From Bacilli bacterium (GTDB taxonomy: Bacteria > Bacillota_I > Bacilli_A > RF39 > UBA660): a stretch of DNA of 42,234 nt. Below, piece after piece: positions 5,197-33,335 of the stretch. Within the stretch, counting starts at the first letter, position 1, and every line of letters starts with the position of its first letter. A program made the translations under genes and the position numbers. The DNA lies in NCBI GenBank assembly GCA_017478105.1, contig JAFVEF010000007.1, positions 1 through 42,234 on the forward strand, read 5' to 3'. The notes under the pieces were generated by a model. That model saw only the letters and a program-made list of their open reading frames with translations. It ran no database searches and was not told the DNA's origin.

Positions 5197-6465
5197 TTAG
5201 CCTATACGGAAAGCCGGTGATACACCGTAAGCACCATAAGAACTGCGAGAGTTGCAATCGCCTGTAGAATTGCCATAGTAGAAATAGCTCGTATTATTAG
5301 AATAAGCCGAGCGCAACCACCAAGATTTATTAGAATTGTTAGATTTTTTTATTGCTCCTGCATAACTTGATGTTGTTACCCCTATTGATTCATAATAATC
5401 TAATTGTCTCGTTTGCCCTTGCGCTGTGTCATAAATTCCTGTATAGTTCCACACTTCTCTTGCTGATAATAAGTATAGTTTATCGGGTGTCGTGAAGTTT
5501 GTCTCGCCTGATGTACTACCATGTCCTGATACTACGGTTGTTTCTATTATTCCATCTTTTAATTCTTGAGGTAGTGCATTATAAATATCAGCATTTACAT
5601 ATGTTCTCATTTCACTTGCGGGCCATCCACCTATATTTCCATTTCCTATTGAAGTACTGCTTGAATCATAGGGGTTCATCCTATGACTTGTAACAATATC
5701 TGTAAACTCTATGACAAAACCGCAGGCAGTTTGTGAAAATCCTTCTGTCGAACATTCTGCAGGAGTTGATTTGTTCGCAATTCTTAAAGTTTGTGTTCCA
5801 AATGTTCCCATATCTATTGTTTTAGTATCTCCGACATTATAAGCACTTGTATTTCCTGTTTTTACGACACTAATAATTGTTTCCCAAGAATCTGTTTCAA
5901 ATGATTCTGGATGAACTGGTTTAACGGCATTATCATCTGCTTGAACGTAAGTTACCGAAAATGATAAATTTAGTGTTTGTTCTGTACTTGGTAAATCATC
6001 TTTAGTTATATCTTTTTTATATCCAACTCTTACTTTATATGTTTCTGTTTTTCCAGCTTCTAATAGATGATTATTCTGAATTGTTACTCCATCAAAATAA
6101 GAAACACTATATTCTAAATAGTTAGGTAAAGTATTTATTTCTGTTCCATTTAGTTTATTTGAAATTGCTGATATCATTCCATCGATAGTTCCGGCATTTT
6201 TCGCATCAACTGTGAATTCAAAATAATCTCCTGGTAAGTTTAAATTTACACTATATGATACTGTAGTTTTAGCAGTATCTATTGCCGGAGTTGAAGCTGT
6301 CACACTACCAGACTTTACTTGAACATTATCAAAATAAATATCCCATTTATTATCTTTTACAACTGTTGTACCTACTATGTTTAAATTAGTACTTAATAAA
6401 GCATAACCTAAACTTATGCTTAATAATAAAATTATAAGTACCATAAATAAATATCTTCTTTGCAT
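5197..6465 (-). CDS. Surface protein A, DUF6273/C-lectin-like end with probable variable region
   Basis: 422 residues from the ATG at 6465, which follows AGGTGAGAAG; an in-frame ATG at 6513 overlaps the promoter. An N-terminal membrane segment (LLLSISLGYALLSTNLNIVG) is followed by a beta-rich domain of about 150 residues shared with proteins B and C. Next comes a domain typical of DUF6273: DSWETI, VGDTKT, GGWPASEMRTYVN, KLYLLS.REVW, SWWLRSA and a C-terminal GVSPAFRI. Between WWLRSA and GVSPAFRI lie 26 residues that differ from protein C at 16 positions, while the preceding domain is much more alike. In that block 24 of 26 codons end in T or C, as in a DGR variable region. Likely membrane-anchored with the variable tip outside. 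The ligand is unknown. Confidence 0.7.
   Translation of the reverse strand: MQRRYLFMVLIILLLSISLGYALLSTNLNIVGTTVVKDNKWDIYFDNVQVKSGSVTASTPAIDTAKTTVSYSVNLNLPGDYFEFTVDAKNAGTIDGMISAISNKLNGTEINTLPNYLEYSVSYFDGVTIQNNHLLEAGKTETYKVRVGYKKDITKDDLPSTEQTLNLSFSVTYVQADDNAVKPVHPESFETDSWETIISVVKTGNTSAYNVGDTKTIDMGTFGTQTLRIANKSTPAECSTEGFSQTACGFVIEFTDIVTSHRMNPYDSSSTSIGNGNIGGWPASEMRTYVNADIYNALPQELKDGIIETTVVSGHGSTSGETNFTTPDKLYLLSAREVWNYTGIYDTAQGQTRQLDYYESIGVTTSSYAGAIKKSNNSNKSWWLRSAYSNNTSYFYYGNSTGDCNSRSSYGAYGVSPAFRIG
5200..5325 (-). other. Candidate DGR variable region of protein A
   Basis: The segment from the WWLRSA codons to the stop. Its GC is visibly higher than the rest of the gene (CGC, TCG, GGC, CCG codons) and it carries almost only NNY codons between the two conserved anchors. 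No template repeat or reverse transcriptase was found in the window. Confidence 0.5.
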
Positions 6466-6477
6466 ATACTTCTCACC

Positions 6478-6513
6478 TATTATAATTTTATAATAATTAT
6501 TGTTTTTATTCAA
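6478..6513 (-). promoter_or_regulatory. Promoter of surface gene A with AT inverted repeat
   Basis: TTGAAT (6508-6513), 17 nt, TAAAAT (6485-6490). An inverted repeat TATTATA-AAAT-TATAATA (6478-6495) overlaps the -10 and runs up to the ribosome binding site. Nearly the same sequence precedes gene B. Confidence 0.65.
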
Positions 6514-13605: not shown

Positions 13606-14715
13606 TTAACAATATGATGCTCCAAAACTATAAACCCCACAATCTAAGCCATTACCATTAGCACTTACAGCACCTTCAGAATCAGCATAAACTTCTAGGT
13701 TTGAAACAGAACAATAATATTCAAAATTATTAGGTTCATATTCATTGCAGTATGATGTACCAAAAGCATTTTGTAATACATTTTTATTATATTCATAGTA
13801 TATACTATTACATTTATCATTTAATTCATCATAATATTCAGATTTACAACGATTATTCACATCATCCCATGTATCTAGACCCCTTATTGCATATGTTCCA
13901 GCTGTTAGTCCCGGATTATTATTGGCCATCACTTCTGTAATTACAAATTCTATATAGCTTTCCGTTACTACATTATCTATTAATTTATGTTTTAGATAAA
14001 ATGGTTTGTTACCATTTGCTGCCATTACATCTTGTGCACTACTATATTGAGTTATAGATTCAGGTATTACTTGATTAAACCTAATATAGTTTTTATCTGG
14101 TCTACTTGTATCCTTTAAATTCACCGTATAAACCGTTTGTGGATGTGGTACAGGTGCTACGTTTGTATCACTTTGGACATATGTTACTGAAAATGATAGG
14201 TTTAGTGTTTGTGGAGTTGCAGGTATATCAGAAACATTTATATCTTTTTTATAACTTACATGTACTTTATATTTTTCTGAAGTTCCTGAAGCTAGTAGAT
14301 GGTTTGGTCCTATATCTATATCATCTACATAAGATACTTTGTATTCTAAATAATTTGGTAGTGTTGTAATTTCTGTTCCATTTAATTTATTTGATACTAC
14401 TGATACCATTCCATCTATTGTACCTGCGTTTACCGCATCAACTGTAAACTCATAGTATTCTCCTGGAATAGTTAATGTTACTGAGTAATTTACAGTAGTT
14501 TTTGCTGTATCGATTGTTGGAGTTGATGCAGATACACTACCTGTCTTAACTTGGACATTCTCCCAGTGAATATTCCATGTCGGATTATTAATTGTTCCTG
14601 TTCCAACTATATTTAGATTAGTATTTAATACGGCATATCCTATTGATATTACTAATATCATTATAATTAGAATCATATAATTTAGTTTTTTCTTATTTTT
14701 ATTATAACTATACAT
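13606..14715 (-). CDS. Surface protein B, shared anchor domain with a different tail
   Basis: 369 residues from the ATG at 14715, which follows AGGTGAAG. The N-terminus (LVISIGYAVLNTNLNIVG membrane segment) and the following beta-rich domain are close to protein A over about 180 residues, including DTAKTT, NAGTIDGM, NGTEI.TLPNYLEY and LNLSFSVTYVQ. The tail is different: RPDKNYIRFNQVIPESI, then a Cys-rich region with repeated C-x(n)-YY features and a final CGVYSFGASYC. It lacks WWLRS and the GC-rich variable end, so it is not a DGR target candidate. Anchored outside the membrane; partner unknown. Confidence 0.65.
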   Translation of the reverse strand: MYSYNKNKKKLNYMILIIMILVISIGYAVLNTNLNIVGTGTINNPTWNIHWENVQVKTGSVSASTPTIDTAKTTVNYSVTLTIPGEYYEFTVDAVNAGTIDGMVSVVSNKLNGTEITTLPNYLEYKVSYVDDIDIGPNHLLASGTSEKYKVHVSYKKDINVSDIPATPQTLNLSFSVTYVQSDTNVAPVPHPQTVYTVNLKDTSRPDKNYIRFNQVIPESITQYSSAQDVMAANGNKPFYLKHKLIDNVVTESYIEFVITEVMANNNPGLTAGTYAIRGLDTWDDVNNRCKSEYYDELNDKCNSIYYEYNKNVLQNAFGTSYCNEYEPNNFEYYCSVSNLEVYADSEGAVSANGNGLDCGVYSFGASYC

Positions 14716-14726
14716 ATACTTCACCT

Positions 14727-25206: not shown

Positions 25207-25424
25207 AATAAAAAGAACTTTATCCCTAAGGACGAAGTTCTCGTGGTACCACCTTATTTTATAAGTATAGACTTATCTTAAAAACTATAACGCGTTACCG
25301 TATTTATCTTATCCATAAATCACACTTGAAAGTGATCTGAAATATTATACTTATTATTCTCTTCCACCAAATGAGAACTCTCTATAAACTTTTTAATATT
25401 TCCGTCTTTCGCATTTGTTTTACA
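25207..25424 (-). promoter_or_regulatory. T-box riboswitch, probably tRNA-Ile
   Basis: Stem I start AGAGAG (25378-25383), a candidate specifier ATC (25334-25336) in TTCAGATCACT, the T-box AAGGTGGTACCACGAG (25240-25255; CACG in place of the usual CGCG), and a terminator hairpin AGAACTT...AAGTTCT (25214-25241) with a T-run. It should raise expression of the exchanger gene and ileS when tRNA-Ile is uncharged. The specifier is the best of a few possible triplets. Confidence 0.9.
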
Positions 25425-25589: not shown

Positions 25590-25691
25590 TCAAGGTTTGA
25601 AAGCAAGTGTCATTATCTCTTTTTGAAGTTCAAATGCATTATCTACATATTCTAGACCACTTTCTCTTCGTTTAAATTTTGGTACTGACAA
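25590..25691 (-). pseudogene. Probable remnant of a DGR accessory (Avd-like) gene
   Basis: A 33-codon frame starting TTG (25691) behind AAAGGATGG and ending in TGA. It reads SVPKFKRRESGLEYVDNAF and then a helical ELQKEIMTLAFKP. An N-terminal S-V-P-K-x-K-R followed by a helix is what I associate, from memory, with the small helical accessory proteins (about 100-130 residues) of DGR cassettes in Bacillota. Only the first quarter remains. It lies about 220 nt downstream of surface gene C, where a DGR cassette has its accessory gene. No template repeat or reverse transcriptase follows; the terminator at 25492 and the T-box promoter come next. Confidence 0.5.
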
Positions 25692-25913
25692 ATATCATCC
25701 ATCCTTTTAAAAATCATCCTAGCCATTCTCACGAATAGTTAGAATTTTTACTTGGTCCTCGCTTACACTCGGGCCCTTCCTTTTGTTTTCCATATTTTGG
25801 GACCGTCCTCACTTTCGTTCGGAGCTGGTCCAGTCCAAAATATGAAAAATCGGATTTGTTTCTACTTCTTCCTTTATATTGTTTTATCCTCGGTTTACAC
25901 TTCTTTACATTGT
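25692..25913 (-). other. GC-raised non-coding stretch with hairpin and a three-copy motif
   Basis: It lies between surface gene C and the Avd-like remnant. A long inverted repeat spans 25791-25844 (CATATTTTGG on both arms, then GGACC/GGTCC). A 16-nt motif with plus-strand form TCCTC(A/G)(C/G)TT(A/T)(A/C)(A/G)(C/T)T occurs at 25756, 25806 and 25887. Base composition differs from the surroundings (GGGCCC, GTCC). The frames on the plus strand here are antisense to the variable region and not credible genes. It may be the 3' recognition part of a former DGR target. Confidence 0.5.
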
Positions 25914-27218
25914 TCAGACGATTCGGAAAGCGGGCGAAACGCCGTCAGGATTAATAGCAGAGTAGCTACCGCAAGAACCACTGCTGCCCACATAGTAGAA
26001 AGCGGCAGTAGCACTAGAACGAGCCGAGCGCAGCCACCACCGAGCATTAGAACCATTATTTTGCTTAATTGCTCCTGAATAGCTTGATGTTGTGACATTT
26101 AAGCCTTTATAATAATCTAGTTGTCTTGTATTGGCATAGGCTGTATCATATCTATCTATTCCTTTACTTGTATTTCCATCTACATCTTCAAATACTTCAT
26201 GGGTTGATAATAAATATAGTTTATCAGTTGATGTGAAGTTTGTCTCTCCTGCAGTACTACCATGTCCTGAGACTACTGTTGTATCTGTTATTCCATTCTT
26301 TAATTCTGTTGGTAGAGCATTATAAATATCTGTATTTACATATGTCCTCATCGAACTTGCTGGCCAGCCACCTACATTTGTACCTGTAGTATTCATATTA
26401 TATAACTCAATTATATCTACAAATTCTAACACAAATCCACAAGCTGTTTGACTAAATCCGGTAGTTGAACACTCTGTTGGAGTTGATTTATTTGCTATTC
26501 TTAAAGTATGTGTTCCAAGTGTTCCCATATCTACTGTCTTAGTATCTCCAACATTATAAACACTTGTATTTCCTGTTTTTACGGCATTAACTATTGTATT
26601 CCATGAATCTGTTTCAAATGATTCTGGATGACCTGGTTTAACGGCATTATCATCTGCTTGAACATAATTTATAGTCACTGATACATTGAAAGTTGTATCT
26701 GCTTGGGGATAATTCGTTGTATCGGCATTTTCTAAATATTTAAAACTTACTTTTAAGGTTTCTGTAGAACCAGCTTCTAAAAGATGATTCTTTTCTATTT
26801 CTATACCATCACTATAGGTGACATTATAAGAAAAATATTTTGCTTGATCTGTTGTTAGTTCTGGTAAAAGTATTAAACTATCTACCATTGCATCTATTGT
26901 ACCTGAGTTTACTACATCTATATAGAATTCATATTTGTCTCCTGGATTTTCTAATTGAGCAGAAAAACTAACTGTAGTTAATTCTGATATTGATGGTTCT
27001 GCAGTAGGAGTAACACTTCCTGGTACTGGTTGAGTATTTTCAAAATGAACATTCCATTCATTATCTTTTAACTTAGTAACCCCTACTATTGCTAGATCTG
27101 TTTGTAAATAGGCATATCCTAAACCTAGGGATACACATACTAAAACTAACAATGGTAATAAGAATCTTGTTTTATAGTTATATTTAAATTTTTTAACAAA
27201 TCTTCTTTTAAATTTCAT
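25914..27218 (-). CDS. Surface protein C, DUF6273/C-lectin-like end with probable variable region
   Basis: 434 residues, paralogue of protein A. A basic start, a membrane segment (RFLLPLLVLVCVSLGLGYAYL), a beta-rich domain (about 45-205; NAGT replaced by NSGTIDAM), then the DUF6273 domain: DSWNTI, VGDTKT, RIANKSTPTECSTTGFSQTACGFV, GGWPASSMRTYVN, KLYLLSTHEVF, RWWLRSA and C-terminal GVSPAFRI. The 26 residues between WWLRSA and GVSPAFRI use codons ending in T or C at 25 of 26 positions and match protein A at only 10. This tail is GC-richer than the rest of the gene. Own promoter; start behind GGAGAATATT. Followed by a possible DGR accessory remnant. Confidence 0.7.
   Translation of the reverse strand: MKFKRRFVKKFKYNYKTRFLLPLLVLVCVSLGLGYAYLQTDLAIVGVTKLKDNEWNVHFENTQPVPGSVTPTAEPSISELTTVSFSAQLENPGDKYEFYIDVVNSGTIDAMVDSLILLPELTTDQAKYFSYNVTYSDGIEIEKNHLLEAGSTETLKVSFKYLENADTTNYPQADTTFNVSVTINYVQADDNAVKPGHPESFETDSWNTIVNAVKTGNTSVYNVGDTKTVDMGTLGTHTLRIANKSTPTECSTTGFSQTACGFVLEFVDIIELYNMNTTGTNVGGWPASSMRTYVNTDIYNALPTELKNGITDTTVVSGHGSTAGETNFTSTDKLYLLSTHEVFEDVDGNTSKGIDRYDTAYANTRQLDYYKGLNVTTSSYSGAIKQNNGSNARWWLRSARSSATAAFYYVGSSGSCGSYSAINPDGVSPAFRIV
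25917..26045 (-). other. Candidate DGR variable region of protein C
   Basis: From the WWLRSA codons to the stop: CTG CGC TCG GCT, a run of NNY codons, then GTT TCG CCC GCT TTC. Synonymous differences from gene A in the anchors (CTG/TTG, TCG/TCA, CCC/CCG) mean the two were not recently copied from a single template. Confidence 0.5.
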
Positions 27219-31229: not shown

Positions 31230-33335
31230 TTAATTATTACTAGTATCAACTACATATGGATTTATCATACTTCCATCACCAGATGTATATTCTGTGCCCG
31301 TCTTCAAAGAAACTGACGGACGAAGGCCACGTAGATTATTAATGGCATAATTACTGTTCATGCTACCAGTCGAGAGCACGATACGCCCAAATGCAACGTA
31401 GTTGTCGAAGTTGTAAGGCGAGCCCAGCCAATAATATTGATCAGTCTTTCGTGCATTTGAATTATTTAAAATATTCGCTTCAGGCGATGACATCAATCCT
31501 ACTTTATAAGTTAATTTGGCACTGTTATTACTTACACTAAATTGATCAGTTGTATTTGTACAACTTAAATCACTTGTTACATTATATTCTTTAAATCTCA
31601 TATCAGTAGAAACACTACCACTATTTGGATTCCATCCATTTGTATCTGCATTCCTTTGACTTCTGTCATTACAATATATTGTATCTTCTAGTGCATCATC
31701 ATAACTTAACATATAATGCTTATACCAGGCGTCAACTCCTGTTTTTATTATTGAATTTACCTGATTTACATCATCACTATATAACATCTCACTAACGGCA
31801 TCTTCCACACTTTTACCATCAGTTAAAGCTATATAAAAAATATGTGAAGAATTTAAAGGTGCACTTGCATAATACACATAAGATAATGTACTGCATTCAC
31901 CAGTATCATTAAAACAAGTATAATGATGCGTACTTAGATTACTTTTATCACCATCAGTCATATTCCATGTTTGTATTCTATCACTTCCAAGCGTATACAC
32001 TCCAGTTCCAGTATCATATGTAAAGTCTTTTGCATATATATAATTATTTGATGTAGATAATGCATAATAGCTATAATTATTAGTATATGTTATATATTTC
32101 ATATTTGTACATGTTGTTGTATAATCGCCACATGTATAATAATTCTTATAAGTTGCATAATTATTAAACCAATCCGCTTTTGTTATAGTTACGGTATTAT
32201 CTAATGTATAGGTACCACTGCTTTCTGTATAACTAGTTCCTAATACAATATTGGTATTATAATAACTTAACAAATTACCACCACTCATACTAAACCCATA
32301 CATATAACTGTTTGCTCCACCTGCTATATAATATACAGTAGAACATGTTGTATCTGTCGCAGATTTACAAGTATATAATTCACTTGAAGAAGAATAAGTA
32401 TTAGTCCAAGTATTCTGACTTGTTCCTGTTAAAGTGTATTTATTGGTAGTAGTGTCATATGTAACATCACTTCCATAATAATAATTTGTTCCATTTGTCA
32501 TAGATGTTCTTGTTAACACAGTCACTGCAGTTGGTTGTTTTGAATGATATGGATATACAGCATTATACATATATCCAACATATGCTGGTGAATTATAACT
32601 TGCATTAAATTGTAGTGTTCCAAATTGTGAATAATTTGAACTAGAATTTAATGGTATTACTCCAGCATAAACTGAGCTAATGTAAGATTCTACAAATAAT
32701 ATGGCAGAACAAGAACTATCAACACTAGTTTCTTTACAAGTATATTTTCCAATTAGTCCTGGTCCTGTTGTATCATTCCATGTCGCTTGTTCTGTTATAC
32801 CGCTCAATTTAAATGTTTTGTTAACGCTATCGTAAGTATAATCAGTTCCATACCAGTAGTTAGAAGATAACGCTTCACTTTGACTTCCTGCGTATCCCAC
32901 ATGTGTTCCACGAGTATTAAGACACTGATTGTTTTCTACTTCACCATTATAAATCATCTTCACTCCACCTGTATCGGTAGTACGAATCATTTGCCAACAG
33001 TGATCGGCAAATATGACATTATTTTTATCAAGTACTTGAGTACCTTGTGAATCATTTGAAGCATACCAGTGATAGATGTCTTTTGAAGGTTCTTCTGTAA
33101 ATGAATCATGATGTTCTCCTGTATATTTTTTGGCTAGCCCTCCAGTTTCTGCTTCTTTTGCTAGAACATTGTAAAGAGTTGGTTCATAATACTTCTTTAC
33201 ATTTAAATTACCATTTATATTTAAATTAGTCGAAAGAGTTGAATATCCAATAGATAGAAACATAAAAAGTACTAATATTATGTTTAGTACTAATCTTTTA
33301 TTAAATAGTTGTCTTTTCTTAACTATCTTTCTCAT
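31230..33335 (-). CDS. Large surface protein D with internal repeats and lectin-like end
   Basis: 701 residues. N-terminal membrane segment (LVLNIILVLFMFLSIGYSTLSTNLNING) of the same kind as proteins A-C, but no shared beta-rich domain after it. A region with WQMIRTTDTGGVKMIYNGEVENNQC (about 112-138), then about four degenerate repeats of 65-75 residues, each with a (Y/F)(T/V)YD...Y.L.G....TW core, a YTC and a C-x-x-(L/V/M)-x-Y(about 155-480). The end has TYKVGLMSSPEA, YYWLGSPYNFDNY, GLRPSVSLK and SGDGS...NPYVV, a C-type-lectin-like pattern. The block between LGSP and GLRPSVSL is GC-raised with 23 of 29 codons ending in T or C. Cys-rich and Tyr/Ser/Thr-rich, likely outside the cell. Start behind GAGGTAGT. 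Confidence 0.65.
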   Translation of the reverse strand: MRKIVKKRQLFNKRLVLNIILVLFMFLSIGYSTLSTNLNINGNLNVKKYYEPTLYNVLAKEAETGGLAKKYTGEHHDSFTEEPSKDIYHWYASNDSQGTQVLDKNNVIFADHCWQMIRTTDTGGVKMIYNGEVENNQCLNTRGTHVGYAGSQSEALSSNYWYGTDYTYDSVNKTFKLSGITEQATWNDTTGPGLIGKYTCKETSVDSSCSAILFVESYISSVYAGVIPLNSSSNYSQFGTLQFNASYNSPAYVGYMYNAVYPYHSKQPTAVTVLTRTSMTNGTNYYYGSDVTYDTTTNKYTLTGTSQNTWTNTYSSSSELYTCKSATDTTCSTVYYIAGGANSYMYGFSMSGGNLLSYYNTNIVLGTSYTESSGTYTLDNTVTITKADWFNNYATYKNYYTCGDYTTTCTNMKYITYTNNYSYYALSTSNNYIYAKDFTYDTGTGVYTLGSDRIQTWNMTDGDKSNLSTHHYTCFNDTGECSTLSYVYYASAPLNSSHIFYIALTDGKSVEDAVSEMLYSDDVNQVNSIIKTGVDAWYKHYMLSYDDALEDTIYCNDRSQRNADTNGWNPNSGSVSTDMRFKEYNVTSDLSCTNTTDQFSVSNNSAKLTYKVGLMSSPEANILNNSNARKTDQYYWLGSPYNFDNYVAFGRIVLSTGSMNSNYAINNLRGLRPSVSLKTGTEYTSGDGSMINPYVVDTSNN
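31306..31432 (-). other. Candidate variable region of protein D
   Basis: Consecutive codons TAC AAC TTC GAC AAC TAC after the LGSP anchor are the pattern expected when AAC template codons are varied at adenines. GC (CGT, GGC, GTG, CTC, ACG) is higher than in the rest of the gene. It is followed by a conserved SVSLK anchor and about 20 more residues. Confidence 0.45.

Follow-up and report, generated by a model that had tools for sequence, protein, structure and literature searches.

A target gene beside an accessory-gene stump in a Bacilli genome: a probable truncated DGR cassette

Target C, its variable repeat and the downstream hairpins

The window analysed here is a 42,234-nt stretch (contig JAFVEF010000007.1, assembly GCA_017478105.1) of a Bacilli bacterium of the RF39 lineage. 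Target C (25914..27218, minus strand) encodes a 434-aa protein of secreted or surface type, assigned from the ORF list and Pfam, with an N-terminal signal or anchor and a C-terminal DUF6273 domain (residues 271-433, E 2.8e-20); NCBIfam TIGR04090 (SipW-dependent BsaA-like) gave a weak match under the cut-off. The 3′ end of the gene carries an adenine-directed variable repeat, of which the part alignable to the template repeats of relatives spans 25932..26033 (minus) and stands out by its run of NNY codons and by its differences from paralogous repeats, which fall at columns that are adenine in the relatives’ templates. The original prediction had counted 25 of 26 codons ending in T or C in this tail, a count that is exact for codons 26015-25938, the best 26-codon stretch, against a maximum of 17/26 in the upstream part of the gene. 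T or C occupies the third position in 28 of 29 codons of the variable core, compared to 46% elsewhere in the gene (binomial p 5e-9). The repeat closes with an IMH-like GC-rich 3′ end that includes the stop codon (GGCGTTTCGCCCGCTTTCCGAATCGTCTGA, 25914..25943, minus), is the same in the paralogue on contig C44, and matches in position the point at which template/variable repeat homology ends in the intact cassette of a relative (locus L035).

Downstream of the repeat lies hairpin H1 (25792..25843, minus), with the core UCC-GA-AC-GAAA-GU-GA-GGA on a long stem (DNA fold z -4.4), followed by a second, weaker hairpin of the same architecture (GGGCCCGAGTGTAAGCGAGGACC, loop GTAA, 25754..25776, minus), picked out by eye and by RNA folding, whose piece alone has a DNA fold z of -0.7, which is not significant. 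The core recurs between target and accessory gene throughout the cassettes of relatives as UCC-GA-AC-GNAA-GU-GA-GGA, with variable outer stems. In an alignment of nine cassette sequences, nine pairs have changed on both sides; in the core of L036, an A-T pair replaces C-G. The covariation exceeds that of all 500 shuffles and drops to a fraction in slid registers. A search of 291 genomes located the 19-base core at six loci, with no occurrence at a control site. Five of these loci are cassettes or relics of target C’s family, and the sixth (in genome G121) is a solo target without an accessory gene. Rfam matches were limited to the T-box of the next operon and a GA-cis match at chance level. 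This T-box leader (25225-25423, minus; RF00230, 72.7 bits, below the gathering score) stands ahead of genes for an antiporter and ileS.

The accessory-gene remnant and the intact cassettes of relatives

The original prediction placed a 33-codon frame with its own ribosome site some 220 nt downstream of target C and compared it to DGR accessory proteins. The frame is there (25590..25691, minus; 33 codons including the TTG start, then TGA), about 222 nt from the target C stop (ending at 25914) to its start at 25691, with an AGGA ribosome-site-like stretch 5′ of it. Read from 25691 to 25590, it opens TTG SVPKFKRRESGLEY and runs as TTG plus SVPKFKRRESGLEYVDNAFELQKEIMTLAFKP to its stop, with TTG standing where relatives have ATG. 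A search of 291 same-family genomes yielded seven homologues (E 2e-13 to 4e-10), which belong to seven other genera, and a GTDB genome scan yielded eleven loci. Several of the homologues are the start of a frame of about 182 residues that has a DUF6273 target on one side and, on the other, an adenine-rich repeat followed by a reverse transcriptase gene. In intact cassettes, the accessory gene that separates target from template repeat is matched by the remnant at 74-84% over its first ~31 residues; the remnant extends through the first long helix inclusive, and its DNA homology to the intact genes stops at 25596. No model in Pfam, PHROGs or NCBIfam matched the 33-residue fragment, which is too short for such a search. 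The fragment was absent from phage records and the full-length accessory profile found nothing in viral contigs, giving no sign of a phage cassette. Sequence comparison therefore supports the identification of the 33-codon fragment as the N-terminus of a DGR accessory (Avd-like) protein of about 182 residues, and the proposed resemblance is borne out.

Intact cassettes in relatives have the order target, hairpin, Avd-like gene, template repeat and reverse transcriptase. L035 and L038 retain target, avd-like gene, template repeat and reverse transcriptase, and L036 and L042 are intact except for the target, which is cut by the contig end. In L035, all 20 mismatches between template and variable repeat over 102 aligned bases fall at template adenines (20 at A, 0 elsewhere); the corresponding counts are 19/0 in L041, 18/2 in L039, 14/1 in L040 and 16/3 in L038. 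The reverse transcriptases of the intact relatives match RVT_1 (E 1e-10), contain YMDD/FMDD, and match the BPP-1 enzyme (8ub7 chain A, E 3e-11), with retron and group II enzymes in the PDB scoring higher. In these respects they are like DGR reverse transcriptases, and they depart from them in carrying LGxEIAQ in place of the usual GxxxSQ; a survey gives the motif as (I/V/L)GxxxSQ, with an AQ variant that is rare but real (PMC3521204). With an adenine-mismatched repeat pair, a reverse transcriptase and an accessory gene, the relatives’ intact cassettes are DGRs.

The accessory protein itself is harder to place by sequence. Full-length relatives gave no match at E 1 to the Avd models PF22296, NF033474 and phrog_3206, and matched phrog_30516 (function unknown) at E 2e-19. 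A PDB sequence search with the avd profile returned nothing relevant, and PF05635 (23S IVP, S23 fold) had no match in the own genome, where its controls were silent too. An AlphaFold2 model of a full-length relative is a four-helix bundle (pLDDT 81.8). Foldseek returned no E below 0.001 for this model, and the top matches by VIA-align were 2gsc, 2rld (S23 fold), 8ub8, 8ub7 (Avd in the DGR ribonucleoprotein) and 4dwl. The alignment to 4dwl, the BPP-1 Avd, had Z 12.9 and an rmsd of 1.9 over 108 residues, that to 8ub8 had Z 13.3, and the range across 4dwl, 8ub8, 2rld and 2gsc was Z 12.9-14.9 with rmsd 1.8-2.1 over 108-113 residues. As de novo designed four-helix bundles reach Z 12.7 against the same model, the fold match is support rather than proof. 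The full-length relatives are thus predicted to fold like BPP-1 Avd, with the four-helix architecture of the S23/Avd fold; the stronger argument for their identity is the position of the gene in the cassette, between target and template repeat, and the fold match is supportive.

History of the target C locus

A nucleotide profile of the cassette gave one continuous match in the window at 25959-25596 (E 3e-39), spanning the end of the variable repeat, the IMH, the hairpin, the ribosome site and 32 accessory codons; its only other match was the variable repeat of target A (5321-5203, E 3e-12). Remnants of template or reverse transcriptase were sought in the stretch separating the fragment from the T-box by local alignment, tblastn and nhmmer, with only chance-level AT-rich matches. 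There is no template repeat and no DGR-type reverse transcriptase near the locus, and the assembly contains no template repeat, no reverse transcriptase of the cassette clade and no further copies of the accessory gene; as the assembly is 86% complete, these absences are provisional. The reverse transcriptases that the genome does contain are on contigs C25, C21 and C27, and only that on C25 matches the clade enzyme, at 28%. The order target, spacer, accessory, with template and reverse transcriptase missing, is therefore what the original prediction described, both at the locus and in the assembly as a whole.

Seven targets of the same family occur in the genome: A and C in the window, one each on contigs C9, C44 and C50, and two on C55. 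Target A (5197..6513, minus) encodes 438 aa with DUF6273 (E 2.5e-20) and has its variable repeat at about 5203-5321. Between the variable repeats of C and C44, 26 of the 37 columns with adenine in relatives’ templates are changed, compared to 2 of 65 others (p 2e-13). In the 60 codons upstream of the 12 repeat-adjacent codons, the two genes differ at 4 of 180 nucleotides, with zero synonymous changes among 58 identical residues, and past the repeat they have in common a 3′ flank (25849..25916, minus; ~92% identity over 68 nt by local alignment). Their N-terminal parts are about 69% identical and the last ~70 codons before the repeat nearly identical, a contrast along the gene that points to gene conversion among targets. 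The near-identical flanks together with the scrambled adenine columns show that the shared 3′ block is recent and that adenine-directed rewriting came later, so that the lineage had a template and a reverse transcriptase at its disposal until a short time ago, or has them still in sequence missing from the assembly. On these comparisons, diversification of the orphan repeats was recent.

Other DGR-related loci are found in the same genome. The 42 kb contain four DGR-target-like surface proteins of three types, all on the minus strand (5197-6513, 13606-14724, 25914-27218 and 31230-33335); the proteins at 13606-14724 and 31230-33335 resemble the targets of the DGRs on C21 and C25 in protein sequence, but in the adenine test the C21 and C25 templates do not match their repeats. 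The C21 DGR (L005, 4560-6808) comprises a target, a template repeat, an Avd gene with weak matches to known Avd models (bAvd, E 1e-8), and a reverse transcriptase split into two frames; its template and variable repeat are mismatched at 17 adenines and a single other base, and it is perhaps inactive, or the split is perhaps a consensus error. The C25 DGR (L006, 11522-15716) comprises a target, an adenine-rich template, an accessory gene recognised by no Avd model, and a reverse transcriptase running off the contig end. Service of target C or A by either template was rejected on far too many mismatches at non-adenine positions. In addition, the target on C9 (L031) has an in-frame TAA just upstream of its variable repeat where its paralogues have CAA.

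Besides the window, ten related loci are damaged. The accessory gene has nonsense codons in L037 and L039, the latter also with a broken reverse transcriptase frame; the reverse transcriptases of L040 and L041 stop after about 230-240 codons. The accessory gene is cut at codon 113 in L043, which has no reverse transcriptase, near codon 32 in L030, and at codon 87 in L044, where it is joined to a variable-repeat-like end. In this last case (CACWWC010000002.1, 723-1030), the truncated gene is fused, in an in-frame region, to STGGFPAFRVG and a stop, which suggests recombination between cassette and target. L029 and L045 are riddled with indels, with stretches of avd flanking internal deletions and frameshifts, and L083 consists of target and hairpin only. 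Because the N-terminus served as bait, loci lacking it are under-sampled and the search favours loci that retain it, which weakens any reading of the recurrent truncations near codons 30-45 as a meaningful breakpoint; some of the damage may also be assembly error.

None of 12 genomes of the same genus has the target or the cassette between divIVA and the antiporter; what separates divIVA from the antiporter and ileS there is either no gene at all or unrelated genes. Of the 39 genomes examined in the genus, G296 is alone in having an intact accessory gene, and its intact cassette is accompanied by a truncated second copy. The insertion is therefore particular to the source species or to a small number of its relatives.

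We consider the target C locus most likely to be a truncated DGR cassette with target C as its cis target, deleted from about codon 32 of the accessory gene onward. Under this reading, target C would formerly have been followed by the hairpin, the avd-like gene, the template repeat and the reverse transcriptase, and we infer that the whole cassette once stood at exactly this site and was then truncated in situ. The deletion would have removed the avd-like gene from codon ~32 on together with template and reverse transcriptase, leaving the target with its IMH and docking hairpin, and the opening codons of the accessory gene. Judging by the intact relatives and the BPP-1 literature, the reverse transcriptase would have copied template RNA, placing random bases opposite adenines; the cDNA would have replaced the variable repeat, with IMH and hairpin marking the integration site and Avd assisting the reverse transcriptase. 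The original claim of a DGR formerly present at this site and since deleted stands as the best explanation and falls short of proof, the original insertion being unseen in the 12 same-genus genomes. Also weighing against the preferred reading are the provisional nature of the absences in an 86% complete assembly and the fact that the one intact cassette known from the genus (L042 in G296) has a different N-terminus and is not obviously the nearest relative of the relic. An unlikely alternative history is that the full cassette was never here and that target C was copied or transferred as a trans target together with its 3′ flank, including the hairpin and the first accessory codons. The empty site in the 12 genomes fits such a transfer, as do the intact and truncated copies side by side in G296 and the recent, near-identical 3′ block of C and C44, including 68 nt past the stop, which implies that target 3′ ends move between loci in this genome. 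Yet the remote targets A, C9, C44, C50 and C55 have no hairpin or accessory fragment within ~400 nt, relics elsewhere are decaying full genes (L029, L045) and not clean copies, and the relic-bearing genomes except G296 show no intact avd.

Two further readings have very little in their favour. A single metagenome assembly, with DGR repeats that are hard to assemble, could have collapsed or deleted the cassette, but the unique intergenic DNA downstream runs into the genus-conserved order of T-box, antiporter and ileS, and similar truncations occur in separate assemblies; such an artefact is highly improbable. It is barely conceivable that the 33-codon frame is an independent conserved small protein with its own gene, the outcome that the original prediction had named as its refutation: it does have a ribosome-site-like sequence and a start codon, but the sequences homologous to it form the N-terminal part of ~182-residue proteins, truncations or frameshifts end the short versions at differing points, and no small-protein family matches. 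A different matter, compatible with truncation and concerning present activity only, is whether target C is now fixed or may be rewritten in trans by a cassette outside the assembly. The latter is a tentative possibility, somewhat short of an even chance, in which an intact cassette in the unassembled ~14% would rewrite target C and its paralogues. The recent adenine-directed differences between C and C44, the identical IMH kept in both, and the tendency of MAG contigs to break at such cassettes (the C25 reverse transcriptase, L036, L037, L040 and L042 all end in or beside one) are consistent with continued rewriting; the assembly without template repeat, avd and clade reverse transcriptase argues against it, as does the nonsense codon already present before the variable repeat of the orphan target on C9. 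Of the suggestion that target C is served by another cassette or frozen, then, the C21 and C25 templates do not fit the first part, and the recent diversification of the repeat leaves room for a donor elsewhere. More speculative, and in our view doubtful, is a general extension in which hairpin-bearing solo targets would be live trans targets of a split DGR, the template and reverse transcriptase half having been repeatedly shed in the lineage while targets and docking hairpins were kept, with scattered targets sharing one donor that may be transient or horizontally supplied.

Relation to known DGRs

The proposed former cassette resembles the BPP-1 DGR in having a target with a 3′ variable repeat, an IMH, a downstream hairpin, a four-helix Avd, a template repeat and a reverse transcriptase, and the locus differs from it in that template and reverse transcriptase are missing. 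In BPP-1, target recognition requires such a hairpin; in the BPP-1 type, the stem is GC-rich and uninterrupted, measures 7-10 bp and follows the repeat at a distance of 4-34 bp (Guo et al. 2011, PMC3240598). The GAAA loop of H1 fits the GRNA tetraloop of the BPP-1 type, as does the GGAA found in relatives; the GTAA also found in relatives does not fit. Its stem, in contrast, is split by a tandem G-A (GA/GA) interruption and continues into a long AT-rich outer stem, and it lies ~70 nt past the target C stop codon, so that neither stem nor distance follows the BPP-1 type. The covarying hairpin family is new, and in target C’s family its motif is specific enough to find solo targets that surveys based on reverse transcriptases overlook.

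The Avd-like relatives share their cassette role and predicted fold with the bAvd/DivGenRetAVD proteins (PF22296, NF033474, phrog_3206), and the gene family of the window fragment is unlike them in lacking any match at E 1; at ~182 residues, they are also longer than BPP-1 Avd (~125 residues), with no sequence-model match. They represent a new Avd branch that current models do not recognise, and DGRs carrying it are consequently under-annotated.

A decayed DGR with orphan targets is a situation already known from Treponema denticola, in which isolates without reverse transcriptase and template keep target genes, read as core DGR remnants, and one leftover repeat has 21 mutations, 19 of them at template adenines (Nimkulrat et al. 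2016, PMC4891356). Target C likewise stands in an assembly that lacks its template and reverse transcriptase. The accessory gene in T. denticola is of HRDC type, unlike the one here, and the passages drawn on here make no mention of an accessory-gene fragment or hairpin relic beside an orphan target (PMC4891356). What is new at the target C locus is a dissected relic that retains both an accessory-gene stump and a hairpin. It is a dated relic, in that the contrast between flanks and adenine columns of C and C44 makes it possible to ask for how long a diversified surface protein persists after the loss of the machine that made it, and the cassette family to which it belongs provides a series of decay stages within one bacterial family.
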